Notes under the pieces: generated by a model
What the model was told of the DNA's origin: nothing
The model's input: the letters and a program-made list of their open reading frames with translations, nothing else
Database searches by the model: none
Origin: Gracilariopsis chorda
Lineage: Eukaryota; Rhodophyta; Florideophyceae; Gracilariales; Gracilariaceae
DNA: 41,176 nt
Reading direction: 5' to 3'
Assembly: GCA_003194525.1 (NCBI GenBank)
Contig: NBIV01000485.1
Coordinates: forward strand, 1-41,176
Position numbers and translations under genes: made by a program
Part shown: in pieces, positions 14,339 through 41,176 of the stretch
Layout of the letters: the number at the start of each line of letters is the position of its first letter
Position numbering within the stretch: the first letter of the stretch is position 1

Positions 14339-14446
14339 TTATATTTTTTGCGTTCTTTATTCATTGAATTAAAGTACTTGCTCTTCAGCTTTTGCTTTCT
14401 CCACCCTTTTTTTTCTTCTCACCGCTGTTTATAACTTCTCCACCGC

Positions 14447-14530: not shown

Positions 14531-14566
14531 TAATTGAAGGGAGGCGTTTCCAAAAAACATTGGCTT

Positions 14567-14725: not shown

Positions 14726-14982
14726 ACCCATCCCCCTGCACAGTGGTCTGCACTGCAGTTATTTTGGCAGTGCCCGCCAAATACACTCCACTGTACTTTA
14801 CATACATAATGGCAATCCCAGCCATCTATAGACGTGCGGGCACTCAATTTCAACTCTATTCTATACTCATTCTCGGCGCCACGACCATAATTGGTTTTCA
14901 GGTCGTTTGCAAGCGATAGCGAGCAGAAACGGCCTGCAGATCCCCCGGCGTCACCCATATTCAGCGGCATAAAACGCCACCC

Positions 14983-15020
14983 GCGGCCAAAGGCCGCCTC
15001 TACTTGTTTTAGGTGACTAA
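14983..15020 (+). repeat. Hairpin followed by CTAA: possible Helitron 3' end
   Basis: GCGGCC-AAA-GGCCGC (14983-14997) is a perfect 6-bp stem. CTAA at 15017-15020, 19 nt later and followed by T, fits the hairpin-CTRR-T arrangement of Helitron 3' ends. Together with the leader copy at 14567 it could close a short non-autonomous element. The GC-rich palindrome alone could also arise by chance. Confidence 0.35.
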
Positions 15021-19440: not shown

Positions 19441-19462
19441 GTAGATATTAAAGCATCATAAG

Positions 19463-20809
19463 AGCTTGCAGGGTCTTGGTGGTCCTTCTACGCCAACGCA
19501 GCCAACCACTCGCGTTTTCTTTTTGGACGCTCCGGGTGGAACCGGCAAGACCTTCCTCTCCAAGGCAATTCAGGCCACGTTACGCCTTCGTGGCAAGTCC
19601 GTCCTTACAGTAGCCACGTCTGCTGTAGCAGCCATACTGCTTAAGGGCGGTCGGACGGCCCACTCCGTGTTCAGGATTCCCATCCCAGCCACCGCTGAGA
19701 GCACGTGCAACATCCCGGTCAACTCGCACTTGGCCACTCGGATGAAGAACGTCGACCTTATTATCAGGGACGAGATCGTAATGTGTCACCGCTTCTGCGT
19801 CGAAGCCGTAGACCGCACTCTCCGTGACATAACGCGCTCGCAGCTCCCCTTTGGAGGCAAGTTCGTATTGCTTTCTGGCGACTTTCGGCAGATCCTTCCC
19901 GCTGTTCGTGGCGGCTCTCGATCAGTGATCGTCAACGCATGCATCAAACGCTCAAGTCTCTTTTCTCACTTTCGCACCTTGAGATTGACTGAGAACATGC
20001 GCCTTTCTGCGCTCCGTCAAGACCCCACAGCCACACAGGAGGCACTGCAGTTTCCAAACACGCTCTTGCAGATTGGAGAGGGCAGACTGCCAGGCACTGT
20101 CCCGCCAAAGCACCCCTTCACCCTCCCAGAGTCCGTACAATGTGTGGAGTCGTTCCGCAGCATGGTCCGTACGGTGTTTCGTGGTATCGCTGAAAGGTAC
20201 ATAGATGCGGATTGGCTAACGTCAACGGTGATTATAACCGCACGAAACTATTGCCTACCAGAGCTCAACGACTATATAGGCCACATGATTCCTGGAGCGT
20301 ATCGCACGTACCTCAGTACAGACAAGGTGAGCGACGACAACGGTGCCGCGCTGCAGTACCCTGTCGAGATGCTCAACACTCTGACTGCCGGGTCGGCGCT
20401 GCCGGACCACTGCCTCAAACTCAAAAAGGGCTTTGTGGTTATGCTCCTTCGCAACTGGGATCCCGCAAACGGCCACGTCAATGGTGCCATCTATACCGTA
20501 GAAGACATGCAAAGCAACGTACTGTTCCTTCGACTCGCTTCTGGAGTGAATCGTGGCAACGCACTATGCCTGCCACGCATGCCCTGTGGACCTGGAGACG
20601 ACAACTTTCCGGTTCCCAACTTCACTCGCACCCAGTTCCCGGTACGTGTCTGTTTTGCCATCACTACCAATAAGGCACAGGGTCAGTCGTATAGTGGTCG
20701 CATCGGACTGGATTTGCATGATGGCTGTTTCACGCATGGCCAGCTGTACGTCGCCTTTTCTCGGACCACCAACCCGTCCAAACATCGTGGCCTGTCTCCC
20801 TGCCGGTAG
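19463..20809 (+). pseudogene. Pif1-like helicase domain of Helitron 2 (5'-truncated, C-terminal frameshift)
   Basis: A single open frame of about 448 codons has no ATG at its start. Counting from 19466: Walker A APGGTGKT (residues 24-29), Walker B VDLIIRDEIVM (Asp102, Glu103; the common WDE is RDE), motif III LSGDFRQILPAV (138-146), LTENMR (174-179), and FPVRVCFAITTNKAQGQSYSG (near 391-411) followed by FTHGQLYVAFSR. It would couple ATP hydrolysis to 5'-3' unwinding during rolling-circle transposition, normally as the C-terminal part of a Rep-helicase. Compared with the array copies, one extra A in GTCCAAACATC (near 20780) shifts the frame and replaces the last ~21 residues (NIVACLPAGSTSTNNVVYPE...) by a short tail. 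Apart from this and the lost 5' end the domain is intact, so it is much younger than Helitron 1. Confidence 0.85.
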
Positions 20810-20875
20810 CACCTCTACCAATAATGTAGTGTACCCCGAAGTTCTTTCGTAGACCAACTGGATAGCTTTAAGTAA

Positions 20876-20931
20876 ACGTCTTCTTTTTTCTTTCATTTTT
20901 TTCTTTTCTTCTCCCTTCTCACTCTCCAAAC
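20876..20931 (+). repeat. Conserved pyrimidine tract in the Helitron-2 3' UTR
   Basis: A ~50-nt C/T stretch (CTTCTTTTTTCTTTCATTT...CTCACTCTCC) follows the helicase stop. It recurs at the same place in every array unit and, with changes, in the diverged unit at about 32378. It lies between the gene end and the terminal hairpin. Confidence 0.7.
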
Positions 20932-21013
20932 ATACTTGCATTCTACAAACAAACTACCCAAAACACGGTACGCAAATACTCCTTTCACTCTAATGCTTCT
21001 TTCACTCCTTAAC

Positions 21014-21044
21014 GGGTGCGAAGCACGCAATGGAGCCACTTGTC
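21014..21044 (+). repeat. Helitron-2 3' terminal hairpin and junction with array unit 1
   Basis: GGGTGC-GAA-GCACGC is followed by AATGGAGCCACTTG and then directly TC at 21043-21044. In the later units the hairpin is the perfect GCGTGC-GAA-GCACGC. A GAA-capped GC hairpin about 14 nt before a CTRR-like end (here CTTG) is the Helitron 3' signature; here one arm carries a mismatch. Confidence 0.7.
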
Positions 21045-21283
21045 CCCCCCTACTAAAGACAATGTTTGTCCGTCTGTCTGTCTGTGTGTCAGCTAACGCC
21101 CACTCATTGGCTGAGAAATCGCCAAAGAGGCTGCCAAGTGGAAACCTGGCATTTTATGCGCTCCAAGAGGCATCTTGCACCGCATAATGCGACACGTTTC
21201 CACCTGGCGCCTTTTGCACGCCACAGTAGCCTAGCCGTTTCACCATAGTAGCCAACCCACTACCCTACAGTAACTAAGCCGTT

Positions 21284-21348
21284 GCAATGCAGTGCACATG
21301 ACCGTTTTAATTACTATTTTTCAACGGTCATGTGCACCAATGGCATTC
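21284..21348. repeat. Long inverted repeat (15-bp perfect stem), unit 1
   Basis: GTGCACATGACCGTT (21292-21306) pairs perfectly with 21323-21337 across a 16-nt A/T loop. Outer arms GCAATGC and GGCATT(G/C) extend the stem in most units to about 22 bp with a small bulge. A second, imperfect copy follows about 120 bp later (near 21404-21475). The pair recurs in each unit (for example from 24187, 27097, 29797, 35688 and 38596). Confidence 0.85.
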
Positions 21349-21515
21349 CACGCTACATTACATGGTTAGGCACAGAAATAAAATGGCACTACACTAAACT
21401 AAGCCGTTGCAATGCAGTGCACATGACCGTTTTAATTACTATATTTCAACAGTCATGTGCACGAATGCCATTGCACGCTAGACTATACCATGGTTAAGCA
21501 CACCAATAAAGTTGC

Positions 21516-22204
21516 ACTAAAAAAACCCGTGCCATGTCAATCACCATTGGTAAATGGCACTACAATAAAGCGTGCCATTTTAACTTCCATGGTTATGCAC
21601 ACCAATAAATTGGCACTACACTAAAGCGTGCCATGTCATTCACCATGGTTAAAACGCACTACAATAAAGTGTGCCATTTTAATTACCATGGTCATGCTCA
21701 CCAATAAACTGGCACTATACTAAAGCATGCGATTTCATTCACAATTTTTATGCACAACAATAAAGTGGCACTAAAATAAAGCGTTCCATGTCCCTCATCA
21801 TAGTTATGCACACCAGTAAAATGGCTCTACAATAAAGCACGCCATATCATACACCATGATTAAATGGCACTACAATAAAGTGTGCCATTTTAATTACCAT
21901 GGTCATGCTCACCAATAAACTGGCACTATACTAAAGCATGCGATTTCATTCACAATTTTTATGCACAACAATAAAGTGGCACTAAAATAAAGCGTTCCAT
22001 GTCCCTCACCATGGTTATGCACACCAGTAAAATGGCACTACAATAAAGCAAGCCATATCATTCATCATGATTAAATGGCACTACAATAAAGCGTGCGATT
22101 TTAATTACCATGGTCATGCTCACCAATAAACTGGCACTACATTAAAATTTGCCATGTCATTCACCATGGTTATGCACACCAATAAAATGGCACTACAATA
22201 GAGC
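21516..22204 (+). repeat. ~57-bp satellite block with ~210-bp higher-order repeat, unit 1
   Basis: Monomers follow TGGCACTACAATAAAGCGTG, CCATGTCATTCACCATGG, TTATGCACACCAATAAAA, alternating with shorter forms lacking the last part. Each holds a TGGCAC...GTGCCA inverted repeat, usually an ACCATGGT palindrome, and AATAAA once or twice. A ~211-bp group of about four monomers is present twice (GGCACTATACTAAAGCATGCG at about 21711 and 21922). Confidence 0.85.
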
Positions 22205-22731
22205 GTGCCATGTCATTCGCGCACTGAGCGCTCCCCTTTCTTTTGCTTTAGTTACTGTACAAATGAAAAATTGCTTGACATAAGTATACACGCATTTACT
22301 TCCCGGCACGTTTATAATCCTCTACAACATAGAGCATTACGCAGTGATCTCTTAACCAACGATCCACATAACTATGCTCTACACGACGATGCCAGGCGCG
22401 ACAATGGTAAGAAGGACAAGGCTATGTGTAGTGATTCGACGCGCGACGATTCTAGGGACGACGATGCTCTACAATGGTGCAGTATACGCCAAGGTTGTAC
22501 TTCCGCACGGTAGCATAGTTTAATGCATACTTCTCACATGCATTGCTGTCGTCTACGATGCTCCAAGCAACAAAGCTATGCTTGACCATGTTGTACATGA
22601 GGACTTTATGCGACATAGTGGAATGCGCGACGATTCTACTTCCGTTTACCAAGCAATGCTCTTCAGCTTCATCTTCAAACCTCAATACCATAGAAGCCAC
22701 AATACCTGAGCAGCACGCCATGTTACCCTAA
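22205..22731. other. Unique inner part of unit 1 before the minisatellite
   Basis: This stretch, repeated in every unit, is open for 102 codons (22205-22513) on the plus strand and 89 codons on the minus strand (22721-22452). Both proteins are low in complexity and look accidental. It contains scattered GACGATG/CTA motifs of the minisatellite, suggesting an older, degenerate extension of that repeat. Confidence 0.4.
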
Positions 22732-22780
22732 ATGAGGTTCTGCACAAAAATCATCGACGATGCTAGATGTCAAAATGCTG

Positions 22781-22895
22781 GACGCGACGATCCTAAGCGC
22801 GACGATGCTAGGCGTGACGATGCTAAGCGCGACGATGCTAGGCGCCATGATACCAGGCGCGATGATTCGAAGAGCAATGATGCTATATGTCAGTG
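22781..22895 (+). repeat. 15-bp minisatellite GACGATGCTARGCGC, unit 1
   Basis: About seven 15-bp units (GACGATGCTAGGCGT, GACGATGCTAAGCGC and similar) decay towards the 3' side. The period is a multiple of 3, so a 153-codon frame (22732-23193) reads through as repeated RDDARRDDAK. This is a by-product of the repeat rather than evidence of a gene. Confidence 0.8.
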
Positions 22896-23185
22896 TACAG
22901 ATTTATGCTCAAATGTCGATGCAATAGAAGCCACTATACCTTCTCACACGCGCCAGCAGTGGCTATCTGATGCTCTGATGACTTCAAGGTATATTACAGG
23001 CGGCATGGCTACTCTGTTCAATAATGCTATGGACGAAAACGCTACGAAGGACTATGCTCTGCACGATGGTGGCACTTTCCTTCCAAATGTTGAGATATAC
23101 AGATTTCATCTACGTGCCAGAAGCGTAGCGTGGCATAGCAGTCTCTGCAGAATGCGCGCAAAGCCGGTGGGACAGTCTGCACGCG

Positions 23186-23389
23186 GGGCGTGAAACGCCC
23201 GATCTCATCTACACGCCAGACGCGTAGTGTGACATAGCAGCCTCTGCAGACTGCGTGCCGAGGCGGTGGGGCAGTCTGCACGCGGGGCATGAAATGCCCT
23301 CGTGCAAAGCATGCCATTGCCATACCAGCATCTAAGAACTGCATGCGGCGGCGGTGTGGTGTTCCACGCGGGCGTGAAACGCCCGCGTG
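23186..23389. repeat. Three GAA-capped GC hairpins, unit 1
   Basis: GGGCGT-GAA-ACGCCC lies at 23186-23200. GGGCAT-GAA-ATGCCC with outer GCACG/CGTGC arms lies at 23278-23305. A perfect 11-bp stem CACGCGGGCGT-GAA-ACGCCCGCGTG lies at 23365-23389. They are spaced about 99 and 86 bp apart and use the same GAA cap as the element's 3' end hairpin. Confidence 0.85.
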
Positions 23390-23709
23390 CAGAGCACGTA
23401 ATACCATTGCCTTCGATCATGCGTTGCATGACGGAGCTGAGAGCGCACTTTCTATGCACACACAATTTCATTTACTTGGTAAATCAGACCCAGTTCCCAG
23501 TACGTGTCTGTTTTGCCATCACTACCAAGAAGGCACAGGGTCAGTCGTATAGTGGTCGCATCGGACTGGATTTGCGTGATGGCTGTTTCACGCATGGCCA
23601 GCTGTACGTCACCTGTTCTCGGACCACCAACCCGTCCAACATCGTGGCCTGTCTCCCTGCCGGTAGCACCTCTACCAATAATGTAGTGTACCCCGAAGTT
23701 CTTTCGTAG
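23302..23709 (+). pseudogene. Helicase tail with chimeric upstream frame, unit 1
   Basis: The last ~75 codons of the Helitron-2 helicase (from TQFPVRVCFAI, nucleotide 23488) are joined to unrelated upstream sequence that happens to stay open, giving a 135-codon frame. It keeps FTHGQLYV and the C-terminus NIVACLPAG...YPEVLS. The motif TTNKAQGQ has become TTKKAQGQ, and FSR is CSR. No ATPase core is present, so no helicase activity is possible. Confidence 0.7.
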
Positions 23710-24409
23710 ACCAACTTGATAGCTTTAAGTAAACGTCTTCTTTTTTCTTTCATTTTTTTCTTTTCTTCTCCCTTCTCACTCTCCAAACATACTTGCATTC
23801 TACAAACAAACTACCCAAAACACGGTACGCAAATACTCCTTTCACTCTAATGCTTCTTTCACTCCTTAACGCGTGCGAAGCACGCAATGGAGCCACTTGT
23901 CCCCCCTTACTAAAGACAATGTTTGTCCGTCTGTCTGACTGTGCGTCAGCTAACGCCCACTCATTGGCTGAGAAATCGCCAAAGAGGCTGCCAAGTGGAA
24001 ACCTGGCATTTTATGCGCTCCAAGAGGCATCTTGCACCGCATAATGCGACACGTTTCCACCTGGCGCCTTTTGCACGCCAGCTTGCACCGCATAATGCGA
24101 CACATTTCCACCTGGCGCCTTTTGCACGCCACAGTAGCCTAGCCGTTTCACCATAGTAGCCAACCCACTACCCTACAGTAACTAAGCCGTTGCAATGCAG
24201 TGCACATGACCGTTTTAACTACTATTTTTCAACGTTCATGTGCACCAATGGCATTGCACGCTACACTACATGGTTAGGCACACCAAGAAAATGGCACTAC
24301 ACTAAACTAAGCCGTTGCAATGCAGTGCACATGACCGTTTTAATTACTATATTTCAACAGTCATGTGCACGAATGCCATTGCACGCTAGACTACACCATG
24401 GTTATGCAC

Positions 24410-25110
24410 ACCAATAAAGTTGCACTAAAAAAAACCCGTTCCATGTCAATCACCATGGGTAAATCGCACTACAATAAAGCGTGCCATTTTAACTTCCATG
24501 GTTATGCACACCAATAAATTGGCACTACACTAAAGCGTGCCATGTCATTCACCATGGTTTAAACGCACTACAATAAAGTGTGCCATTTTAATTACCATGG
24601 TCATGCTCACCAATAAACTGGCACTATACTAAACCATGCGATTTCATTCACAAGTTTTATGCACAAAAATAAAGTGGCACTAAAATAAAGCGTTCCATGT
24701 CCCTCACCATGGTTATGCACACCAGTAAAATGGCACTACAATAAAGCAAGCCATATCATTCACCATGCTTAAATAGCACTACAGTAAAGCGTGCGATTTT
24801 AATTACCATGGTCATGCTCACCAATAAACTGGCACTATACTAAAGCATGCGATTTCATTCACAATTTTTATGCACAACAATAAAGTGGCACTAAAATAAA
24901 GCGTTCCATGTCCCTCACCATGGTTATGCACACCAGTAAAATGGCACTACAATAAAGCAAGCCATATCATTCACCATGATTAAATGGCACTACAATAAAG
25001 CGTGCGATTTTAATTACCATGGTCATGCTCACCAATAAACTGGCACTACACTAAAATTTGCCATGTCATTCACCATGGTTATGCACACCAATAAAATGGC
25101 ACTACACTAG
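24410..25110 (+). repeat. ~57-bp satellite block, unit 2
   Basis: Same monomers as in unit 1, with two copies of the ~210-bp higher-order repeat (starting near 24619 and 24830). The first copy carries CTAAACCATGCG where the others have CTAAAGCATGCG. Confidence 0.85.
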
Positions 25111-26209
25111 AGCGTGCCATGTCATTCGCGCACTGAGCGCTCCCCTTTCTTTTGCTTTAGTTACTGTACAAATGAAACATTGCTTGACATAAGTACACAC
25201 GCATTTACTTGACGGCACGTCTATAATCCTCTACAACATAGAGCATTACGCAGTGATCTCTTAACCAACGATCCACATAACTATGCTCTACACGACGATG
25301 CCAGGCGCGACAATGGTAAGAAGGACAAGGCTATGTGTAGTGATTCGACGCGCGACGATTCTAGGGACGACGATGCTCTACAATGGTGCAGTATACGCCA
25401 AGGTTGTACTTCCGCACGGTAGCATAGTTTAATGCATACTTCTCACATGCATTGCTGTCGTCTACGATGCTCCAAGAAACAAAGCTATGCTTGACCATGT
25501 TGTACATGAGGACTGTATGCGACATAGTGGAATGTGCGACGACTCTACTTCCTTTTACCAAGCAATGCTCTTCAGCTTCATCTTCAAAGCTCAATACCAT
25601 AGAAGCCACAATACCTGAGCAGCACGCCATGTTACCCTAAATGAGGTTCTGCACAAAAATCATCGACGATGCTAGATGTCAAAATGCTGGACGCGACGAT
25701 CCTAAGCGCGACGATGCTAGGAGTGACGATGCTAAGCGCGACGATGCTAGGCGCCATGATACCAGGCGCGATGATTCGAAGAGCAATGATGCTATATGTC
25801 AGTGTACAGACTTATGCTCAAATGTCGATGCAATAGAAGCCACTATACCTTCTCACACGCGCCAGCAGTGGCTATCTGATGATCTGATGACTTCAAGGTA
25901 TATTACAGGAGGCATGGCTACTCTGTTCAATAATGCTATGGACGAAAACGCTACGAAGGACTATGCTCTGCACGATGGTGGCACTTTCCTTCCAAATGTT
26001 GAGATATACAGATTTCATCTACGTGCCAGAAGCGTAGCGTTGCATAGCAGTCTCTGCAGAATGCGGCCCAGGCGGTGGGACAGTCTGCACGCGGGGCGTG
26101 AAACGCCCGATCTCATCTACACGCCAGACGCGTAGTGTGACATAGCAGCCTCTGCAGACTGCGTGCGGAAGCGGTGGGGCAGTCTGCACGCGGGGCATGA
26201 AATGCCCTC

Positions 26210-26617
26210 GTGCAAAGCATGCCATTGCCATACCAGCATCTAAGAACTGCATGCGGCGGCGGTGTGGTGTTCCACGTGGGCGTGAAACGCCCGCGTGCAA
26301 AGCACGTAATACCATTGCCTTCGATCATGCGTTGCATGACGGAGCTGAGAGCGCACTTTCTATGCACACACAATTTCATTTACTTGGTAAATCAGACCCA
26401 GTTCCCAGTACGTGTCTGTTTTGCCATCACTACCAAGAAAACACAGGGTCAGTCGTATAGTGGTCGCATCGGACTGGATTTGCGTGATGGCTGTTTCACG
26501 CATGGCCAGCTGTACGTCACCTTTTCTCGGACCACCAACCCGTCCAACATCGTGGCCTGTCTCCCTGCCGGTAGCACCTCTACCAATAATGTAGTGTACC
26601 CCGAAGTTCGTTCGTAG
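26210..26617 (+). pseudogene. Helicase tail with chimeric upstream frame, unit 2
   Basis: 135-codon frame with helicase homology from 26396. TTNKAQGQ has become TTKKTQGQ, and the end reads YPEVRS. HGQLYVTFSR is retained. It is a non-functional fragment. Confidence 0.7.
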
Positions 26618-27319
26618 ACCAACTTGATAGCTTTAAGTAAACGTCTTCTTTTTTCTTTCATTTTTTTCTTTTCTTCTCCCTTCTCACTCTCCAAACATAC
26701 TTGCATTCTACAAACAAACTACCCAAAACACGGTACCCAAATACTCCTTTCACTCTAATGCTTCTTTCACTCCTTAACGCGTGCGAAGCACGCAATGGAG
26801 CCACTTGTCCCCCCTTACTAAAGACAATGTTTGTCCGTCTGTCTGACTGTGCGTCAGCTAACGCCCACTCATTGGCTGAGAAATCGCCAAAGAGGCTGCC
26901 AAGTGGAAACCTGGCATTTTATGCGCTCCAAGAGGCATCTTGCAACGCATAATGCGACACGTTTCCACCTGGCGCCTTTTGCACGCCAGCTTGCACCGCA
27001 TAATGCGACACGTTTCCACCTGGCGCCTTTTGCACGCCACAGTAGCCTAGCCGTTTCACCATAGTAGCCAACCCACTACCCTACAGTAACTAAGCCGTTG
27101 CAATGCAGTGCACATGACCGTTTTAATTACTATTTTTCAACGGTCATGTGCACCAATGGCATTGCACGCTACACTACATGGTTAGGCACACCAATAAAAT
27201 GGCACTACACTAAACTAAGCCGTTGCAATGCAGTGCACATGACCGTTTTAATTACTATATTTCAACAGTCATGTGCACGAATGCCATTGCACGCTAGACT
27301 ACACCATGGTTATGCACAC

Positions 27320-27810
27320 CAATAAAGTTGCACTAAAAAAACTCGTGCCATGTCAATCACCATGGGTAAATGGCACTACAATAAAGCGTGCCATTTTAAC
27401 TTCCATGGTTATGCACACCAATAAATTGGCACTACACTAAAGCGTGCCATGTCATTCACCATGGTTTAAAACGCACTACAATAAAGTGTGCCATTTTAAT
27501 TACCATGGTCATGCTCACCAATAAACTGGCACTATACTAAAGCATGCGATTTCATTCACAATTTTTATGCACAACAATAAAGTGGCACTAAAATAAAGCG
27601 TTCCATGTCCCTCACCATGGTTATGCACACCAGTAAAATGGCACTACAATAAAGCAAGCCATATCATTCACCATGATTAAATGGCACTACAATAAAGCGT
27701 GCGATTTTAATTACCATGGTCATGCTCACCAATAAACTGGCACTACACTAAAATGTGCCATGTCATTCACCATGGTTATGCACACCAATAAAATGGCACT
27801 ACAATAGAGC
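27320..27810 (+). repeat. ~57-bp satellite block, unit 3
   Basis: Shortest satellite of the array, with one ~210-bp higher-order repeat (GGCACTATACTAAAGCATGCG only once, near 27528). Confidence 0.85.
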
Positions 27811-28907
27811 GTGCCATGTCATTCGCGCACTGAGCGCTCCCCTTTCTTTTGCTTTGGTTACTGTACAAATGAAACATTGCTTGACATAAGTATACACGCA
27901 TTTACTTCCCGGCACGTTTATAATCCTCTACAACATAGAGCATTACGCAGTGATCTCTTAACCAACGATCCACATAACTATGCTCTACACGACGATGCCA
28001 GGCGCGACAATGGTAAGAAGGACAAGGCTATGTGTAGTGATTCGACGCGCGACGATTCTAGGGACGACGATGCTCTACAATGGTGCAGTATACGCCAAGG
28101 TTGTACTTCCGCACGGTAGCATAGTTTAATGCATACTTCTCACATGCATTGCTGTCGTCTACGATGCTCCAAGCAACAAAGCTATGCTTGACCATGTTGT
28201 ACATGAGGACTTTATGCGACATAGTGGAATGCGCGACGATTCTACTTCCGTTTACCAAGCAATGCTCTTCAGCTTCATCTTCAAACCTCAATACCATAGA
28301 AGCCACAATACCTGAGCAGCACGCCATGTTACCCTAAATGAGGTTCTGCACAAAAATCATCGACGATGCTAGATGTCAAAATGCTGGACGCGACGATCCT
28401 AAGCGCGACGATGCTAGGCGTGACGATGCTAAGCGCGACGATGCTAGGCGCCATGATACCAGGCGCGATGATTCGAAGAGCAATGATGCTATATGTCAGT
28501 GTACAGATTTATGCTCAAATGTCGATGCAATAGAAGCCACTATACCTTCTCACACGCGCCAGCAGTGGCTATCTGATGCTCTGATGACTTCAAGGTATAT
28601 TACAGGCGGCATGGCTACTCTGTTCAATAATGCTATGGACGAAAACGCTACGAAGGACTATGCTCTGCACGATGGTGGCACTTTCCTTCCAAATGTTGAG
28701 ATATACAGATTTCATCTACGTGCCAGAAGCGTAGCGTGGCATAGCAGTCTCTGCAGAATGCGCGCAAAGCCGGTGGGACAGTCTGCACGCGGGGCGTGAA
28801 ACGCCCGATCTCATCTACACGCCAGACGCGTAGTGTGACATAGCAGCCTCTGCAGACTGCGTGCCGAGGCGGTGGGGCAGTCTGCACGCGGGGCATGAAA
28901 TGCCCTC

Positions 28908-29315
28908 GTGCAAAGCATGCCATTGCCATACCAGCATCTAAGAACTGCATGCGGCGGCGGTGTGGTGTTCCACGTGGGCGTGAAACGCCCGCGTGCAAAG
29001 CACGTAATACCATTGCCTTCGATCATGCGTTGCATGACGGAGCTGAGAGCGCACTTTCTATGCACACACAATTTCATTTACTTGGTAAATCAGACCCAGT
29101 TCCCAGTACGTGTCTGTTTTGCCATCACTACCAAGAAGGCACAGGGTCAGTCGTATAGTGGTCGCATCGGACTGGATTTGCGTGATGGCTGTTTCACGCA
29201 TGGCCAGCTGTACGTCACCTTTTCTCGGACCACCAACCCGTCCAACATCGTGGCCTGTCTCCCTGCCGGTAGCACCTCTACCAATAATGTAGTGTACCCC
29301 GAAGTTCTTTCGTAG
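28908..29315 (+). pseudogene. Helicase tail with chimeric upstream frame, unit 3
   Basis: 135-codon frame with helicase homology from 29094, TTKKAQGQ, HGQLYVTFSR and intact YPEVLS end. The Asn-to-Lys change in TTNKAQGQ is shared with units 1, 2 and 5-7, so it predates amplification of these copies. Confidence 0.7.
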
Positions 29316-30009
29316 ACCAACTTGATAGCTTTAAGTAAACGTCTTCTTTTTTCTTTCATTTTTTTCTTTTCTTCTCCCTTCTCACTCTCCAAACATACTT
29401 GCATTCTACAAACAAACTACCCAAAACACGGTACCCAAATACTCCTTTCACTCTAATGCTTCTTTCACTCCTTAACGCGTGCGAAGCACGCAATGGAGCC
29501 ACTTGTCCCCCCTTACTAAAGACAATGTTTGTCCGTCTGTCTGACTGTGCGTCAGCTAACGCCCACTCATTGGCTGAGAAATCGCCAAAGAGGCTGCCAA
29601 GTGGAAACCTGGCATTTTATGCGCTCCAAGAGGCATCTTGCACCGCATAATGCGACACGTTTCCACCTGGCGCCTTTTGCACGCCAGCTTGCACCGCATA
29701 ATGCGACACATTTCCACCTGGCGCCTTTTGCACGCCACAGTAGCCTAGCCGTTTCACCATAGTAGCCAACCCACTACCCTACAGTAACTAAGCCGTTGCA
29801 ATGCAGTGCACATGACCGTTTTAATTACTATTTTTCAACGTTCATGTGCACCAATGGCATTGCACGCTACACTACATGGTTAGGCACACCAATAAAATGG
29901 CACTACACTAAACTAAGCCGTTGCAATGCAGTGCACATGACCGTTTTAATTACTATATTTCAACAGTCATGTGCACGAATGCCATTGCACGCTAGACTAC
30001 ACCATGGTT

Positions 30010-30318
30010 ATGCACACCAATAAAGTTGCACTAAAAAAACCCGTGCCATGTCAATCACCATGGGTAAATCGCACTACAATAAAGCGTGCCATTTTAACTT
30101 CCATGGTTATGCACACCAATAAATTGGCACTACACTAAAGCGTGCCATGTCATTCACCATGGTTTAAACGCACTACAATAAAGTGTGCCATTTTAATTAC
30201 CATGGTCATGCTCACCAATAAACTGGCACTATACTAAAGCATGCGATTTCATTCACAATTTTTATGCACAACAATAAAGTGGCACTAAAATAAAGCGTTC
30301 ATGTTCATCATTTATGCA

Positions 30319-30374
<56 letters not shown>

Positions 30375-30855
30375 CATGCGATTTCATTCACAATTTTTAT
30401 GCACAACAATAAAGTGGCACTAAAATAAAGCGTTCCATGTCCCTCATCATAGTTATGCACACCAGTAAAATGGCTCTACAATAAAGCAAGCCATATCATA
30501 CACCATGATTAAATGGCACTACAATAAAGTGTGCCATTTTAATTACCATGGTCATGCTCACCAATAAACTGGCACTATACTAAAGCATGCGATTTCATTC
30601 ACAATTTTTATGCACAACAATAAAGTGGCACTAAAATAAAGCGTTCCATGTCCCTCATCATGGTTATGCACACCAGTAAAATGGCACTACAATAAAGCAA
30701 GCCATATCATTCACCATGATTAAATGGCACTACAATAAAGCGTGCGATTTTAATTACCATGGTCATGCTCACCAATAAACTGGCACTACACTAAAATGTG
30801 CCATGTCATTCACCATGGTTATGCACACCAATAAAATGGCACTACAATAGAGCGT
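30010..30855 (+). repeat. ~57-bp satellite block with internal poly-A, unit 4
   Basis: This carries two ~210-bp higher-order repeats plus an interrupted partial copy. The partial copy runs into GCGTTCATGTTCATCATTT, then the poly-A run 30320-30373, then resumes at GCATGCGATTTC. Confidence 0.8.
30320..30373 (+). repeat. 54-nt poly-A tract inside the satellite
   Basis: 54 uninterrupted A, found in no other unit. The bases just before it have lost several positions relative to the other copies. It may be a replication slippage product, a retrotransposed tail, or an assembly/sequencing artefact. Confidence 0.9.
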
Positions 30856-31838
30856 GCCATGTCATTCGCGCACTGAGCGCTCCCCTTTCTTTTGCTTTAG
30901 TTACTGTACAAATGAAACATTGCTTGACATAAGTATACACGCATTTACTTCCCGGCACGTTTATAATCCTCTACAACATAGAGCATTACGCAGTGATCTC
31001 TTAACCAACGATCCACATAACTATGCTCTACACGACGATGCCAGGCGCGACAATGGTAAGAAGGACAAGGCTATGTGTAGTGATTCGACGCGCGACGATT
31101 CTAGGGACGACGATGCTCTACAATGGTGCAGTATACGCCAAGGTTGTACTTCCGCACGGTAGCATAGTTTAATGCATACTTCTCACATGCATTGCTGTCG
31201 TCTACGATGCTCCAAGCAACAAAGCTATGCTTGACCATGTTGTACATGAGGACTTTATGCGACATAGTGGAATGCGCGACGATTCTACTTCCGTTTACCA
31301 AGCAATGCTCTTCAGCTTCATCTTCAAACCTCAATACCATAGAAGCCACAATACCTGAGCAGCACGCCATGTTACCCTAAATGAGGTTCTGCACAAAAAT
31401 CATCGACGATGCTAGATGTCAAAATGCTGGACGCGACGATCCTAAGCGCGACGATGCTAGGCGTGACGATGCTAAGCGCGACGATGCTAGGCGCCATGAT
31501 ACCAGGCGCGATGATTCGAAGAGCAATGATGCTATATGTCAGTGTACAGATTTATGCTCAAATGTCGATGCAATAGAAGCCACTATACCTTCTCACACGC
31601 GCCAGCAGTGGCTATCTGATGCTCTGATGACTTCAAGGTATATTACAGGCGGCATGGCTACTCTGCTCAATAATGCTATGTACGAAAACGCTACGAAGGA
31701 CTATGCTCTGCACGATGGTGGCACTTTCCTTTCAAATGTTAAGATATACAGATCTCATCTACACGCCAGAAGCGTAGCGTGGCATAGCAGCCTCTGCAGA
31801 ATGCGTGCCAAGGCGGTGGGGCAGTCTGCACGCGGGGC

Positions 31839-32351
31839 GTGAAAAGCCCGCCTCGTGCAAGTCATGCCATTGCCATATCAGCATCTACGAACTGCATGCA
31901 GCGGTGGTGTGGTGCTCTGCACACGGGTGTGAAACGCCCGCGTGCAGAGCATTCCATTGATATAACAGCGTCTACGAACTGCATGCGGCGGCGGTGGGGT
32001 GCTCTGCACGCGGGCGTGAAACGCCCGCGTGCAGAGCACCTATTACCATTGCCTTCGATCATGCGTTGCATGACGGAGCTGAAAGTGCACTTTCAATGCA
32101 CACACAATTTTATTTATTTGGTAAATCCGACCCAGTTCCCAGTACGTGTCTGTTTTCCCCTCACTACCAATAAGGCAGAGTTCCAGTCGTCAAATGGTCG
32201 CATCGGACTCGATTTGCGTGATCGCTGTTTCACGCATGGCCATCTGTACATCGCTTTTTCTCAGACCACCAACCCGTCCAACATCGTGGCCTGTCTCCCT
32301 GCCGGTAGCACCTCTACCAATAATGTAGTGTACCCCGAAGTTCTTTCGTAG
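31839..32351 (+). pseudogene. Diverged helicase tail, unit 4
   Basis: 170-codon frame with helicase homology from 32130. It keeps TTNKA with the ancestral Asn but has AEFQSSN for AQGQSYS, DRCFTHGHLYIAFSQ for DGCFTHGQLYVAFSR, and CFPLTT for CFAITT. Most substitutions relative to the other copies alter the residue, which argues against purifying selection. The final NIVACLPAG...YPEVLS is identical. Confidence 0.7.
31911..32040. repeat. Very long GAA-capped hairpins in the diverged block
   Basis: 31998-32017 pairs perfectly over 20 bp with 32021-32040 across a GAA loop (arm starts GGTGCTCTGCACG). A slightly imperfect version lies about 87 bp upstream (31911-31950). It is the longest stem seen in the window and looks like an extended form of the hairpins at 23365-23389. 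Confidence 0.9.
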
Positions 32352-32671
32352 ACTAGCTTGATAGCTTTACATAAACCTCTTCTTTTTTCTTTCATTTTTT
32401 TTCTTCTCCTCTTCCTTTTTAATCCCCAATTATACTTGCATTCTACAAATAAACTGCCCAAAACACGCTTCCAAAATACTTCTTTCACTCTAATGCTTCT
32501 TTCACTCCTTAACGCGTGCGAAGCACGCAATGGAGCCACTTGTCTTTTTATACTAAAGACAATGTTTGCCCGTCTGTCTGTCTGTCGGTCAGCTAACGCT
32601 CACTTATTGGTCGCAATATCGGCAAGGAGGCTGCCAAGTGGAAACGTGGCATTTTATGCGCTCCAAGAGGC

Positions 32672-32935
32672 ATCTTGCACCGCATAATGGGGTTTTATGC
32701 GCTCCAAGAGGCATCTTGCACCGCAAAATGCGACACGTTTCCACCTGGCGCCTTTTGCAAACCACAGTTAATGCGACACGTTTTTACCTGCCGCCTTTTG
32801 CACACCACAGTAGCGAAGAGGTATTTGCACCGCATAATGTGACACGTTTCCACCTGGCGCCTTTTGCACACCACAGTGGCCAAGAGGCATCTTGCACCGC
32901 ATAATTCGACACGTTTCCACCTGGTGCCTCTTGCA
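32672..32935 (+). repeat. Expanded CACGTTTCCACCTGGCGCC repeats, unit 5
   Basis: At least four copies of the segment GCATCTTGCACCGCATAATG, CGACACGTTTCCACCTGGCG, CCTTTTGCA are present with irregular spacing and substitutions. Other units have one (unit 1) or two copies. Confidence 0.75.
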
Positions 32936-33069
32936 GGTCATACTAGCCTATCCGTTTGACCAACGTAGCCCACCTGTTACACTGCAGTAACCGACCCGTT
33001 GGAGGGCAGTGCACATGACCGTTTTAATTACTATTTTTCAACGGTCATGTGCACCAATGCTATTGCACG

Positions 33070-33696
33070 CTACACTACACCATGCTTATGCAAACCAATA
33101 TAGTGGCACTACAAAAAACCCTGCTATGTCATTCACAATGGTTAAATAGCACTACAATAAAGTCTGCCATTTTAATTACCATGGTTATGCGCACCAAAAA
33201 ATTGCACTACACTAAAGCGTGCCATGTCAATCACCATTGTTATGCACACCAATAAAATGGCACTACACTAAAGCGTTCCATGTCATTCACCATGGTTTAA
33301 TGGCACTACAATAAACCGTGCCATTTTAATTACCATGGTTATGCACACCAATAAAATGGCACTACACTAAAGCGTTCCATGTCATTCACCATAGTTATGC
33401 TCACCAATAAAGTGGCACTAAAATAAAGCGTGCCATGTCTTATACCATGGTTATGCACAACAATAAAGTGGCACTACACTAGAGCGTGCCATGTCACTCA
33501 CCATGGTTATGCACACCAATAAAATGGCACTACAATAAAGCATGCCATGTCATTCACCATGATTAAATGGCACTACAATAAAGCGTGCGATTTTAATTAC
33601 CATGGTTATGCTCACCAATAAAATGACACTACACTAAAATGTGCCATGTCATTCACCATGGTTATGCACACCAATAAAATGGCACTACAATAGAGC
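33070..33696 (+). repeat. ~57-bp satellite block, diverged form, unit 5
   Basis: The monomers are more regular and closer to a simple consensus (GCACTACACTAAAGCGTGCC, ATGTCATTCACCATGGTTAT) than in the other units. The ~210-bp higher-order pattern is not apparent. Confidence 0.75.
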
Positions 33697-34793
33697 GTGC
33701 CATGTCATTCGCGCACAGAGTGCTCCCCTTTCTTTTGCTTTAGTTACTGTACAAATGAAACATTGCTTGACATAAGTATACACGCATTTACTTCCCGGCA
33801 CGTCTATAATCCTCTACAACATAGAGCATTACGCAGTGATCTCTTAACCAACGATCCACATAACTATGCTCTACACGACGATGCCAGGCGCGACAATGGT
33901 AAGAAGGACAAGGCTATGTGTAGTGATTCGACGCGCGACGATTCTAGGGACGACGATGCTCTACAATGGTGCAGTATACGCCAAGGTTGTACTTCCGCAC
34001 GGTAGCATAGTTTAATGCATACTTCTCACATGCATTGCTGTCGTCTACGATGCTCCAAGCAACAAAGCTATGCTTGACCATGTTGTACATGAAGACTTTA
34101 TGCGACATAGTGGAATGCGCGACGATTCTACTTCCGTTTACCAAGCAATGCTCTTCAGCTTCATCTTCAAACCTCAATACCATAGAAGCCACAATACCTG
34201 AGCAGCACGCCATGTTACCCTAAATGAGGTTCTGCACAAAAATCATCGACGATGCTAGATGTCAAAATGCTGGACGCGACGATCCTAAGCGCGACGATGC
34301 TAGGCGTGACGATGCTAAGCGCGACGATGCTAGGCGCCATGATACCAGGCGCGATGATTCGAAGAGCAATGATGCTATATGTCAGTGTACAGATTTATGC
34401 TCAAATGTCGATGCAATAGAAGCCACTATACCTTCTCACACGCGCCAGCAGTGGCTATCTGATGATCTGGTGACTTCAAGGTATATTACAGGCGGCATGG
34501 CTACTCTGTTCAATAATGCTATGGACGAAAACGCTACGAAGGACTATGCTCTGCACGATGGTGGCACTTTCCTTCCAAATGTTGAGATATACAGATTTCA
34601 TCTACGTGCCAGAAGCGTAGCGTGGCATAGCAGTCTCTGCAGAATGCGCGCAAAGCCGGTGGGACAGTCTGCACGCGGGGCGTGAAACGCCCGATCTCAT
34701 CTACACGCCAGACGCGTAGTGTGACATAGCAGCCTCTGCAGACTGCGTGCCGAGGCGGTGGGGCAGTCTGCACGCGGGGCATGAAATGCCCTC

Positions 34794-35201
34794 GTGCAAA
34801 GCATGCCATTGCCATACCAGCATCTAAGAACTGCATGCGGCGGCGGTGTGGTGTGCCACGTGGGCGTGAAACGCCCCCGTGCAGAGCACGTAATACCATT
34901 GCCTTCGATCATGCGTTGCATGACGGAGCTGAGAGCGCACTTTCTATGCACACACAATTTCATTTACTTGGTAAATCAGACCCAGTTCCCAGTACGTGTC
35001 TGTTTTGCCATCACTACCAAGAAGGCACAGGGTCAGTCGTATAGTGGTCGCATGGGACTGGATTTGCGTGATGGCTGTTTCACGCATGGCCAGCTGTACG
35101 TCACCTTTTCTCGGACCACCAACCCGTCCAACATCGTGGCCTGTCTCCCTGCCGGTAGCACCTCTACCAATAATGTAGTGTACCCCGAAGTTCTTTCGTA
35201 G
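34794..35201 (+). pseudogene. Helicase tail with chimeric upstream frame, unit 5
   Basis: 135-codon frame with helicase homology from 34980, TTKKAQGQ and HGQLYVTFSR. GRIGLDL has become GRMGLDL. It returns to the common sequence type despite the diverged 5' half of this unit. Confidence 0.7.
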
Positions 35202-35894
35202 ACCAACTTGATAGCTTTAAGTAAACGTCTTCTTTTTTCTTTCATTTTTTTCTTTTCTTCTCCCTTCTCACTCTCCAAACATACTTGCATTCTACAAACA
35301 AACTACCCAAAACACGGTACCCAAATACTCCTTTCAATCTAATGCTTCTTCCACTCCCTAACGCGTGCGAAGCACGCAATGGAGCCACTTGTCCCCCCTT
35401 ACTAAAGACAATGTTTGTCCGTCTGTCTGACTGTGCGTCAGCTAACGCCCACTCATTGGCTGAGAAATCGCCAAAGAGGCTGCCAAGTGGAAACCTGGCA
35501 TTTTATGCGCTCCAAGAGGCATCTTGCACCGCATAATGCGACACGTTTCCACCTGGCGCCTTTTGCACGCCAGCTTGCACCGCATAATGCGACACGTTTC
35601 CACCTGGCGCCTTTTGCACGCCACAGTAGCCTAGCCGTTTCACCATAGTAGCCAACCCACTACCCTACAGTAACTAAGCCGTTGCAATGCAGTGCACATG
35701 ACCGTTTTAATTACTATTTTTCAACGGTCATGTGCACCAATGGCATTGCACGCTACACTACATGGTTAGGCACACCAATAAAATGGCACTACACTAAACT
35801 AAGCCGTTGCAATGCAGTGCACATGACCGTTTTAATTACTATATTTCAACAGTCATGTGCACGAATGCCATTGCACGCTAGACTACACCATGGT

Positions 35895-36605
35895 TATGCA
35901 CACCAATAAAGTTGCACTAAAAAAACCCGTGCCATGTCAATCACCATGGGTAAATCGCACTACAATAAAGCGTGCCATTTTAACTTCCATGGTTATGCAC
36001 ACCAATAAATTGGCACTACACTAAAGCGTGCCATGTCATTCACCATGGTTTAAACGCACTACAATAAAGTGTGCCATTTTAATTACCATGGTCATGCTCA
36101 CCAATAAACTGGCACTATACTAAAGCATGCGATTTCATTCACAATTTTTATGCACAACAATAAAGTGGCACTAAAATAAAGCGTTCCATGTCCCTCATCA
36201 TAGTTATGCACACCAGTAAAATGGCTCTACAATAAAGCAAGCCATATCATACACCATGATTAAATGGCACTACAATAAAGTGTGCCATTTTAATTACCAT
36301 GGTCATGCTCACCAATAAACTGGCACTATACTAAAGCATGCGACTTCATTCACAATTTTTATGCACAACAATAAAGTGGCACTAAAATAAAGCGTTCCAT
36401 GTCCCTCACCATGGTTATGCACACCAGTAAAATGGCACTACAATAAAGCAAGCCATATCATTCACCATGATTAAATGGCACTACAATAAAGCGTGCGATT
36501 TAAATTACCATGGTCATGCTCACCAATAAACTGGCACTACACTAAAATGTGCCATGTCATTCACCATGGTTATGCACACCAATAAAATGGCACTACAATA
36601 GAGCG
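35895..36605 (+). repeat. ~57-bp satellite block, unit 6
   Basis: Two ~210-bp higher-order repeats; the second carries GCGACTTCATTC. Apparently identical to the block of unit 7. Confidence 0.85.
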
Positions 36606-37701
36606 TGCCATGTCATTCGCGCACTGAGCGCTCCCCTTTCTTTTGCTTTAGTTACTGTACAAAAGAAACATTGCTTGACATAAGTATACACGCATTTACT
36701 TCCCGGCACGTTTATAATCCTCTACAACATAGAGCATTACGCAGTGATCTCTTAACCAACGATCCACATAACTATGCTCTACACGACGATGCCAGGCGCG
36801 ACAATGGTAAGAAGGACAAGGCTATGTGTAGTGATTCGACGCGCGACGATTCTAGGGACGACGATGCTCTACAATGGTGCAGTATACGCCAAGGTTGTAC
36901 TTCCGCACGGTAGCATAGTTTAATGCATACTTCTCACATGCATTGCTGTCGTCTACGATGCTCCAAGCAACAAAGCTATGCTTGACCATGTTGTACATGA
37001 GGACTTTATGCGACATAGTGGAATGCGCGACGATTCTACTTCCGTTTACCAAGCAATGCTCTTCAGCTTTATCTTCAAACCTCAATACCATAGAAGCCAC
37101 AATACCTGAGCAGCACGCCATGTTACCCTAAATGAGGTTCTGCACAAAAATCATCGACGATGCTAGATGTCAAAATGCTGGACGCGACGATCCTAAGCGC
37201 GACGATGCTAGGCGTGACGATGCTAAGCGCGACGATGCTAGGCGCGATGATACCAGGCGCGATGATTCGAAGAGCAATGATGCTATATGTCAGTGTACAG
37301 ATTTATGCTCAAATGTCGATGCAATAGAAGCCACTATACCTTCTCACACGCGCCAGCAGTGGCTATCTGATGATCTGGTGACTTCAAGGTATATCACAGG
37401 CGGCATGGCTACTCTGTTCAATAATGCTATGGACGAAAACGCTACGAAGGACTATGCTCTGCACGATGGTGGCACTTTCCTTCCAAATGTTGAGATATAC
37501 AGATTTCATCTACGTGCCAGAAGCGTAGCGTGGCATAGCAGTCTCTGCAGAATGCGCGCAAAGCCGGTGGGACAGTCTGCACGCGGGGCGTGAAACGCCC
37601 GATCTCATCTACACGCCAGACGCGTAGTGTGACATAGCAGCCTCTGCAGACTGCGTGCCGAGGCGGTGGGGCAGTCTGCACGCGGGGCATGAAATGCCCT
37701 C

Positions 37702-38109
37702 GTGCAAAGCATGCCATTGCCATACCAGCATCTAAGAACTGCATGCGGCGGCGGTGTGGTGTGCCACGTGGGCGTGAAACGTCCCCGTGCAGAGCACGTA
37801 ATACCATTGCCTTCGATCATGCGTTGCATGACGGAGCTGAGAGCGCACTTTCTATCCACACACAATTTCATTTACTTGGTAAATCAGATCCAGTTCCCAG
37901 TACGTGTCTGTTTTGCCATCACTACCAAGAAGGCAGAGGGTCAGTCGTATAGTGGTCGCATCGGACTGGATTTGCGTGATGGCTGTTTCACGCATGGCCA
38001 GCTGTACGTCACCTTTTCTCGGACCACCAACCCGTCCAACATCGTGGCCTGTCTCCCTGCCGGTAGCACCTCTACCAATAATGTAGTGTACCCCGAAGTT
38101 CTTTCGTAG
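37702..38109 (+). pseudogene. Helicase tail with chimeric upstream frame, unit 6
   Basis: 135-codon frame with helicase homology from 37888. QTQFPVR is QIQFPVR, and TTNKAQGQ is TTKKAEGQ, so both the Asn and the Gln of the motif are lost. Confidence 0.7.
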
Positions 38110-38802
38110 ACCAACTTGATAGCTTTAAGTAAACGTCTTCTTTTTTCTTTCATTTTTTTCTTTTCTTCTCCCTTCTCACTCTCCAAACATACTTGCATTC
38201 TACAAACAAACTACCCAAAACACGGTACCCAAATACTCCTTTCAATCTAATGCTTCTTCCACTCCCTAACGCGTGCGAAGCACGCAATGGAGCCACTTGT
38301 CCCCCCTTACTAAAGACAATGTTTGTCCGTCTGTCTGACTGTGCGTCAGCTAACGCCCACTCATTGGCTGAGAAATCGCCAAAGAGGCTGCCAAGTGGAA
38401 ACCTGGCATTTTATGCGCTCCAAGAGGCATCTTGCACCGCATAATGCGACACGTTTCCACCTGGCGCCTTTTGCACGCCAGCTTGCACCGCATAATGCGA
38501 CACGTTTCCACCTGGCGCCTTTTGCACGCCACAGTAGCCTAGCCGTTTCACCATAGTAGCCAACCCACTACCCTACAGTAACTAAGCCGTTGCAATGCAG
38601 TGCACATGACCGTTTTAATTACTATTTTTCAACGGTCATGTGCACCAATGGCATTGCACGCTACACTACATGGTTAGGCACACCAATAAAATGGCACTAC
38701 ACTAAACTAAGCCGTTGCAATGCAGTGCACATGACCGTTTTAATTACTATATTTCAACAGTCATGTGCACGAATGCCATTGCACGCTAGACTACACCATG
38801 GT

Positions 38803-39513
38803 TATGCACACCAATAAAGTTGCACTAAAAAAACCCGTGCCATGTCAATCACCATGGGTAAATCGCACTACAATAAAGCGTGCCATTTTAACTTCCATGG
38901 TTATGCACACCAATAAATTGGCACTACACTAAAGCGTGCCATGTCATTCACCATGGTTTAAACGCACTACAATAAAGTGTGCCATTTTAATTACCATGGT
39001 CATGCTCACCAATAAACTGGCACTATACTAAAGCATGCGATTTCATTCACAATTTTTATGCACAACAATAAAGTGGCACTAAAATAAAGCGTTCCATGTC
39101 CCTCATCATAGTTATGCACACCAGTAAAATGGCTCTACAATAAAGCAAGCCATATCATACACCATGATTAAATGGCACTACAATAAAGTGTGCCATTTTA
39201 ATTACCATGGTCATGCTCACCAATAAACTGGCACTATACTAAAGCATGCGACTTCATTCACAATTTTTATGCACAACAATAAAGTGGCACTAAAATAAAG
39301 CGTTCCATGTCCCTCACCATGGTTATGCACACCAGTAAAATGGCACTACAATAAAGCAAGCCATATCATTCACCATGATTAAATGGCACTACAATAAAGC
39401 GTGCGATTTAAATTACCATGGTCATGCTCACCAATAAACTGGCACTACACTAAAATGTGCCATGTCATTCACCATGGTTATGCACACCAATAAAATGGCA
39501 CTACAATAGAGCG
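38803..39513 (+). repeat. ~57-bp satellite block, unit 7
   Basis: Two ~210-bp higher-order repeats matching unit 6, including the shared GCGACTTCATTC and GCGATTTAAATTACC variants. Confidence 0.85.
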
Positions 39514-40609
39514 TGCCATGTCATTCGCGCACTGAGCGCTCCCCTTTCTTTTGCTTTAGTTACTGTACAAAAGAAACATTGCTTGACATAAGTATACACG
39601 CATTTACTTCCCGGCACGTTTATAATCCTCTACAACATAGAGCATTACGCAGTGATCTCTTAACCAACGATCCACATAACTATGCTCTACACGACGATGC
39701 CAGGCGCGACAATGGTAAGAAGGACAAGGCTATGTGTAGTGATTCGACGCGCGACGATTCTAGGGACGACGATGCTCTACAATGGTGCAGTATACGCCAA
39801 GGTTGTACTTCCGCACGGTAGCATAGTTTAATGCATACTTCTCACATGCATTGCTGTCGTCTACGATGCTCCAAGCAACAAAGCTATGCTTGACCATGTT
39901 GTACATGAGGACTTTATGCGACATAGTGGAATGCGCGACGATTCTACTTCCGTTTACCAAGCAATGCTCTTCAGCTTTATCTTCAAACCTCAATACCATA
40001 GAAGCCACAATACCTGAGCAGCACGCCATGTTACCCTAAATGAGGTTCTGCACAAAAATCATCGACGATGCTAGATGTCAAAATGCTGGACGCGACGATC
40101 CTAAGCGCGACGATGCTAGGCGTGACGATGCTAAGCGCGACGATGCTAGGCGCGATGATACCAGGCGCGATGATTCGAAGAGCAATGATGCTATATGTCA
40201 GTGTACAGATTTATGCTCAAATGTCGATGCAATAGAAGCCACTATACCTTCTCACACGCGCCAGCAGTGGCTATCTGATGATCTGGTGACTTCAAGGTAT
40301 ATCACAGGCGGCATGGCTACTCTGTTCAATAATGCTATGGACGAAAACGCTACGAAGGACTATGCTCTGCACGATGGTGGCACTTTCCTTCCAAATGTTG
40401 AGATATACAGATTTCATCTACGTGCCAGAAGCGTAGCGTGGCATAGCAGTCTCTGCAGAATGCGCGCAAAGCCGGTGGGACAGTCTGCACGCGGGGCGTG
40501 AAACGCCCGATCTCATCTACACGCCAGACGCGTAGTGTGACATAGCAGCCTCTGCAGACTGCGTGCCGAGGCGGTGGGGCAGTCTGCACGCGGGGCATGA
40601 AATGCCCTC

Positions 40610-41018
40610 GTGCAAAGCATGCCATTGCCATACCAGCATCTAAGAACTGCATGCGGCGGCGGTGTGGTGTGCCACGTGGGCGTGAAACGTCCCCGTGCAG
40701 AGCACGTAATACCATTGCCTTCGATCATGCGTTGCATGACGGAGCTGAGAGCGCACTTTCTATCCACACACAATTTCATTTACTTGGTAAATCAGATCCA
40801 GTTCCCAGTACGTGTCTGTTTTGCCATCACTACCAAGAAGGCAGAGGGTCAGTCGTATAGTGGTCGCATCGGACTGGATTTGCGTGATGGCTGTTTCACG
40901 CATGGCCAGCTTGTACGTCACCTTTTCTCGGACCACCAACCCGTCCAAACATCGTGGCCTGTCTCCTGCCGGTAGCACCTCTACCAATAATGTAGTGTAC
41001 CCCGAAGTTCTTTCGTAG
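40610..41018 (+). pseudogene. Helicase tail with frameshifts, unit 7
   Basis: Same frame as unit 6 up to GQL, then an extra T (CAGCTTGTACG) shifts it and the reading ends at 40975. A second indel (GTCCAAACATC) and a missing C (GTCTCCTGCC) follow. The original end (YPEVLS) is seen in another frame up to 41018. Confidence 0.7.
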
Positions 41019-41176
41019 ACCAACTTGATAGCTTTAAGTAAACGTCTTCTTTTTTCTTTCATTTTTTTCTTTTCTTCTCCCTTCTCACTCTCCAAAAACA
41101 TACTTGCATTCTACAAACAAACTACCCAAAACACGGTACCCAAATACTCCTTTCACTCTAATGCTTCTTCCACTCC

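Follow-up and report, generated by a model that had tools for sequence, protein, structure and literature searches.

How do whole transposons come to lie head to tail, each directly against the next, with no host DNA between them? The question is raised by a 41,176-nucleotide stretch of the red alga Gracilariopsis chorda (GenBank assembly GCA_003194525.1, contig NBIV01000485.1, positions 1 to 41,176 of the forward strand; hereafter the window), of which the second half is occupied by a tandem array of Helitrons, or rolling-circle transposons. A first-pass annotation had read this array as seven internally deleted Helitrons standing directly behind the 3' end of a helicase-bearing Helitron, and had attributed it to bypass of the 3' terminator during transposition, with unequal exchange as a possible later contributor. 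The anatomy was examined here both in the window and across the genome. As to origin, the evidence leaves about an even chance of a composite process, in which stacking of new copies at self-recreated target sites seeds the arrays, and exchange between units, perhaps joined by rolling-circle copying, makes them longer.

Joins of the form CTTG/TC, the slash marking the boundary, are base-exact between Helitron ends at all seven window junctions (21042/43, 23899/900, 26807/08, 29505/06, 32542/43, 35391/92 and 38299/300), with zero intervening bases. These are the coordinates given earlier, and the reading of a Helitron 3' end fused to a 5' end without host DNA between them was confirmed; a reversed control pattern had no match genome-wide. 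Every junction has the layout GCACGC-AATGGAGCCACTTG followed directly by TC...ACTAAAGACAATGTTTG. The 3' hairpin, GCGTGC-GAA-GCACGC, is perfect at six junctions, while the 3' terminus at the first (21014..21042, forward strand) has the mismatch in one arm that had been described, reading GGGTGC-GAA-GCACGC and then AATGGAGCCACTTG. The 5' terminus beyond it (21043..21064, forward strand) reads TC-CCCCCCT-ACTAAAGACAATG and includes a CTAA word that is also present in host targets. Each unit starts with TC, a 7-base spacer and ACTAAAGACAATG, and the six complete units end in the GAA-capped hairpin and AATGGAGCCACTTG.

The units, all on the forward strand, are of a type designated P or are recombinants of P with a second type, Q. 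The P-type units are U1 (21043..23899, 2857 bp), a non-autonomous Helitron with exact junctions, U2 (23900..26807, 2908 bp), U3 (26808..29505, 2698 bp, about 210 bp shorter than U6), U6 (35392..38299, 2908 bp) and U7 (38300..41176, at least 2877 bp), with U1 sharing 97.9-99.2% identity with the other four. U4 (29506..32542, 3037 bp) has a P-type head and a Q-type tail, and U5 (32543..35391, 2849 bp) a Q-type head (TCTTTTTATACTAAAG) and a P-type tail. U7 is 99.97% identical to U6 over the aligned bases and stops short of its 3' hairpin where the contig ends, so that the seven units originally counted are six complete ones and a truncated seventh. The description of the units as internally deleted holds for their ends, since the first 313 bp (approximately) and last 412 bp of the 2.9-kb units, as in U1, are common to copies of about 6.1 kb elsewhere; the roughly 2.1 kb between these ends is largely minisatellite, and two open reading frames (ORFs) from the units had no Pfam match. 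This comparison was partial, covering the 6.1-kb copies outside their inner 3 kb or so. U4 also contains 54 consecutive A (30320-30373), a feature listed for none of the other units.

Isolated copies in the genome had been predicted to begin at TC and end at CTTG, between a host A and a host T, and this is where their ends fell. The host base before TC was A at 12 of 19 non-tandem 5' ends (T at four, C at two and G at one), which departs from the T-T insertion of Helentron/Helitron2 elements, and a host T followed CTTG in 21 of 23 distinct non-tandem 3' flanks. The 5' set leaves out five of the 16 flanks fetched (L122, L124, L130, L132 and L136), which were without a clear TC or had damaged junctions, as well as a second start inside the L001 copy; the 3' set consists of 25 flanks minus the duplicates L106 and L118. 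Among the 44 listed 3' ends, 22 were read, as 15 host flanks and seven further junctions. The family shares with canonical Helitrons a TC start (at seven of seven window junctions) and insertion without target site duplication, and it forms exact head-to-tail joins. Its 3' end has the hairpin and is followed by a host T, but the terminal tetranucleotide is CTTG where the canonical one is CTRR.

Empty sites were found for three of the four loci tried and confirmed the ends, gap-free in two cases. The joined flanks of a solo copy on contig C2 match five places gap-free across the junction, at 85-92% (the best being 92% over 181 bases), and those of an array on C53 match five places gap-free at 90-93%. 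For an array on C19, the joined flanks match C261, C380, C228, C353 and C258 across the junction at 82-86%, each match carrying two or three extra bases, so that a single insertion is demonstrated with ends that are not base-exact. A genome search with the joined flanks of the C75 locus recovered no paralogous empty site. The C19 and C53 arrays are each one insertion, as the uninterrupted paralogs of their joined flanks show, and neither has any sign of target duplication. The solo Helitron of about 6.1 kb on C2 (C2:750584-756679) lies within a copy of a coatomer alpha gene; the joined flanks encode coatomer subunit alpha, ungapped across the junction, and uninterrupted relatives of the site are present on C4, C15, C669, C360 and C151.

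The window array is one of many. With up to two mismatches allowed, the 3' end has 227 matches genome-wide. Exact head-to-tail joins to one 5' subtype number 81 in the 91.3-Mb genome, and those to a second 5' subtype add 40 more; the reversed control gave zero matches for both, and a chance origin of the joins is therefore excluded. The total, at least 121 joins on 39 contigs, is a lower bound because the letters also show joins whose spacer or subtype is altered. Some arrays are homogeneous, such as those of C389 (11 units in a row, each of 6108-6168 bp), C942 (seven successive units of 2073-2285 bp) and C1081 (seven of 2243-2278 bp). On C66 and C303, units of about 6.1 kb are intermingled with shorter ones, and the C19 insertion contains 6129- and 2017-bp units after a first unit of about 2.8 kb. 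The 92 units measured comprise 55 of 2-3 kb, 32 of about 6 kb and five of other sizes. In 18 of 58 adjacent pairs the neighbours belong to different 5' subtypes or have lengths more than 150 bp apart, and in eight of the 58 a unit of about 6 kb stands beside a shorter one. A perfect 6-bp hairpin stem was present in 37 of the 44 junctions read, a count that leaves out the host flank L013, which a loose rule had miscounted.

Two further points concern the arrays and their ends. At L001 (1501/1553), at L053 (1501/1999, reverse strand) and at C155:133296/133564, two 5' ends lie 52-498 bp apart with no 3' end seen between them, and these closely spaced double ends recall the multiple 5' termini reported in Fusarium. 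A link to telomeres was considered and rejected, as (TTAGGG)4, the one telomere repeat tried, is nowhere matched exactly in the assembly, and the arrays of C19 and C53 have interior positions.

Host targets carry a word that the element also bears at its own 5' end. CTAA was found 6-9 bases past the nick in 14 of the 23 distinct host 3' flanks, against a background of 1.4%, calculated over positions in 24.7 kb of host flank on both strands with a tested offset window of 5-9; the looser word CT[AG][AT] occurred at the same offsets in 21 of 23, against 7%. CTAA had first been noticed by eye, and the search was redone over all 4-mers and all five-offset windows, where it came top (14 of 23), while 2000 shuffles reached at most eight. 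An all-4-mer search of the last 17 bases of the 5' flanks gave a best word present in only four of 19. The 5' end of the element reads TC N7-12 CTAAAG, with CTAAAG lying 9, 10 or 14 bases after the first T and replaced by ATAAAG on C26. A 5'-end search pattern published for maize, TC[CT][CA]TA[CT]TA[CA], has in the available text a YTAM word at offset 6, as in the hosts here (PMC2267711). It was judged unlikely that the host word simply belongs to the 5' ends of further Helitrons: going by match extents, the words at C19 and C53 lie inside stretches matched by uninterrupted paralogs, and ten long flanks are mutually dissimilar.

Exchange between units is also evident. U4 and U5 are reciprocal P/Q recombinants, and the C66 array contains pure Q units plus the mirror recombinants (units 3 and 4). 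Three of the four switches fall within alignment columns 1500-2300, which hold 11 of the 335 P/Q differences. The best switch points, columns 1798-1867 in U4 and 2043-2170 in U5, are not identical, and a single switch describes unit 4 of C66 badly, 15 of its 322 sites being misfits. As read from distances, P/Q hybrids make up five of the 11 units for which both ends were available. The later unequal exchange that had been suggested is supported in part, by the reciprocal pair and by the placement of switches in a near-identical P/Q block. A Mantel test of head against tail distances genome-wide, in which outlier distances reached 0.48, gave a null result for junctions and for units alike, and so speaks for no particular origin.

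The composite process might proceed as follows. The transposase would nick in front of a T, with a preference for a preceding A, where a CTAA-like word follows several bases downstream. Host targets and the 5' end of the element would present it with the same A/T...CTAA layout, and a resident copy would thus offer a fresh target exactly at its own 5' boundary. A new copy inserted there would create CTTG/TC with no host DNA between, and the tandem pair could then be lengthened and homogenised by homologous exchange between the unit bodies, possibly along with rolling-circle copying from end-joined circles. We infer one signal for both end and target recognition, stacking as the seed of the arrays, and the direction in which they grow. 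In its most specific form, which is put forward tentatively and at somewhat less than an even chance, a single nick signal, (A)/T N5-13 CTAA, would act at the donor 5' end, at the target and just past the donor 3' end; each insertion would rebuild the target at the 5' edge, and stacks of Rep-bearing elements would become macrosatellites. The occurrence of unlike elements within single insertions favours stacking over terminator bypass alone. Transposition of HUH type, through single strands and without target duplication, is a property of IS91-type and IS200/IS605-type elements, in some of which target and end recognition share sequence; these are prokaryotic, unlike the Helitrons described here, and are likened to them by description only.

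Several observations weigh against stacking at self-recreated sites. The spacing of the word in the element (9, 10 or 14) overlaps with that in host targets (6-9) only at 9; CTAA is absent from nine of the 23 host flanks, and even CT[AG][AT] is absent there in two. Adjacent units are alike in 40 of 58 pairs, a pattern also expected from concatemers or from unequal exchange. Junctions in the P/Q arrays, read from distances, join like with like in 15 of 15 cases (10 P-P and five Q-Q), the first window junction being counted as P-P on account of a P-like tail that belongs to the helicase-bearing element; one more, the sixteenth, lies at the margin of the C66 array and pairs a P-like tail with a 6-kb head that is unlike it. 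The like-with-like joins count against stacking of P on Q and favour formation within one element for the P/Q sub-array; set beside the five hybrid units, they suggest that these junctions arose within a single element, as a circle or concatemer, and were later shuffled by recombination.

The best-surviving alternative to stacking followed by exchange is read-through, in which a bypassed 3' terminator or a recopied end-joined circle yields a concatemer of identical units that is inserted at once, with unequal exchange later. This fits the 15 like-with-like P/Q junctions and the uniform runs on C389, C942 and C1081, for which terminator bypass may still be the explanation. Exact head-to-tail circles are made by Helraiser (PMC4778049), and read-through is the published explanation for bat and silkworm arrays (PMC4067079, PMC5876387). 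However, it cannot yield unlike elements in one insertion site, such as the 6.13-kb and 2.0-kb units on C19, and it leaves unexplained why a word from the element's 5' end should recur at the sites of non-tandem copies. The perfect stems at most of the junctions read also speak against bypass. Terminator bypass, as invoked in the first-pass annotation, is therefore not supported alone as the general cause, and read-through in either form is considered an unlikely source of the arrays as a whole.

A lower probability still is assigned to homologous integration of end-joined circles into a resident copy, each adding one unit together with its own CTTG/TC join, followed by unequal crossing over. 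Such integration would fit the U4/U5 pattern, its mirror in units 3 and 4 of C66, and the clustering of three of the four switches in columns 1500-2300, but the differing switch points of U4 and U5 and the misfits in unit 4 of C66 do not suit it. Neighbours as unlike as a 6.1-kb unit and one of 2 kb could pair chiefly through their ends, and the target word is unaccounted for; this origin is considered improbable. That the arrays are artefacts of assembly, through repeat collapse or false joining of dispersed copies, is very improbable: several array contigs, including that of the window, do end inside arrays, which makes array lengths uncertain, but the units within an array differ in length and sequence, the join recurs on 39 contigs, and two whole arrays have paralogous empty sites.

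The element that precedes the window array has a PIF1-like helicase ORF (19445..20809, forward strand; PF05970, 220 bits), whose best relative is from Chondrus crispus at 61% identity, and a 3' region of 413 bp (20630..21042, forward strand) that is common to it and the 2.9-kb units. The helicase-bearing Helitron that had been placed before the array is thus present as a helicase ORF and a 3' end, while no 5' end was found for it within the window; its upstream part has its best match outside the window on C204, at 89-93%. The genome scan for Rep, in which 150 of 710 candidates were scored, listed no match on the window contig. Among the matches listed, PF14214 (Rep) was detected in 10 of the 11 C389 units and with up to 197 bits elsewhere; the open frame at most C389 Rep matches is 327 aa, and the longest over a high-scoring match is 1618 aa, on C91. 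On the reverse strand of C86 (34114-77230), the Rep domains listed are mostly about 6.08 kb apart, and four of them have one internal TAG and near-identical scores; this array was perhaps amplified after inactivation.

A second, distinct Helitron, H2, occupies 7788..15006 on the forward strand, its 5' limit being placed at the start of about 30 aligned copies. It encodes Rep (10712-12412, forward strand; PF14214) and helicase (12695-13966, forward strand; PF05970) in separate ORFs of the same frame, and its 3' end, GCGGCC-AAA-GGCCGC-CTCTACTTG, after which comes TTTTAGGTGACTAATT, also reads CTTG. The window copy is followed by T N9 CTAA, which places the word at offset 10, outside the tested 5-9, and five other H2 3' flanks, with unclear ends, had no consistent word. 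Among the matches listed, C510 and C830 have paired Rep matches with a spacing of about 7 kb, which may belong to H2. Matches to the H2 3' region recur every 1.9 kb or so on C99, and among listed matches on C117, C377, C478 and C3, short pieces of the H2 5' end stand at steps of mostly about 500 bp beside longer H2 matches, which suggests that miniature H2 elements also form arrays on these four contigs. The window further contains, on the reverse strand, an open frame with a match to the Plavaka transposase family (3739-6969, 1077 aa; PF18759, 76 bits).

Tandem arrays or head-to-tail pairs of Helitrons have been described, in the portions of the reports available, from bats, silkworm and maize (PMC4067079, PMC5876387, PMC2267711), with exact joins of the 3' end to TC and zero host bases between, as here. 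Published explanations for them include read-through and, for the maize pair, insertion beside a copy already in place (PMC2267711). The G. chorda family differs from what those texts describe in that roughly one exact join was found for every two 3' ends detected, that 11 units of about 6.1 kb follow one another in a single run, and that a host word at non-tandem copies is shared with the 5' end. Helraiser/HeliBat1 resembles it in the TC start, the 3' hairpin, the A/T target without duplication and, to judge from domain matches here, the combination of Rep with helicase (PMC4778049, PMC5876387), and has CTRR where CTTG is found here; CTTG ends also arose in a number of the insertions made by deletion constructs of Helraiser, and maize is said to have them too (PMC4778049). 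Helraiser targets are given as AT within AT-rich DNA, most strongly on the 3' side, and the available text mentions no CTAA-like word (PMC4778049, PMC5876387). FoHeli elements of Fusarium and relatives likewise show self-insertion and copies with several 5' ends; they differ, as far as the accessible text describes them, in their Helitron2-type ends, their other insertion preference and their occurrence as single cases rather than genome-wide arrays (PMC5148889). A tandem triple in Metarhizium acridum was ascribed in the same source to two insertions at the 5' end or to rolling-circle copying (PMC5148889).

Tandem Helitrons are therefore already known, and the new parts are the scale and the motif: a literature search of incomplete coverage, in partly available texts, recognised no report of a Helitron whose CTAA-like target word also stands in its 5' end, or of arrays composed of whole Rep-bearing elements on such a scale. 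The choice of Helitron targets beyond 'AT', and the decision between read-through and stacking, are left open in the literature as far as it was accessible. With more than 100 exact joins, unlike neighbours, empty sites and a strong shared host word in one genome, both questions become testable, and the family illustrates how whole transposons might give rise to a macrosatellite.

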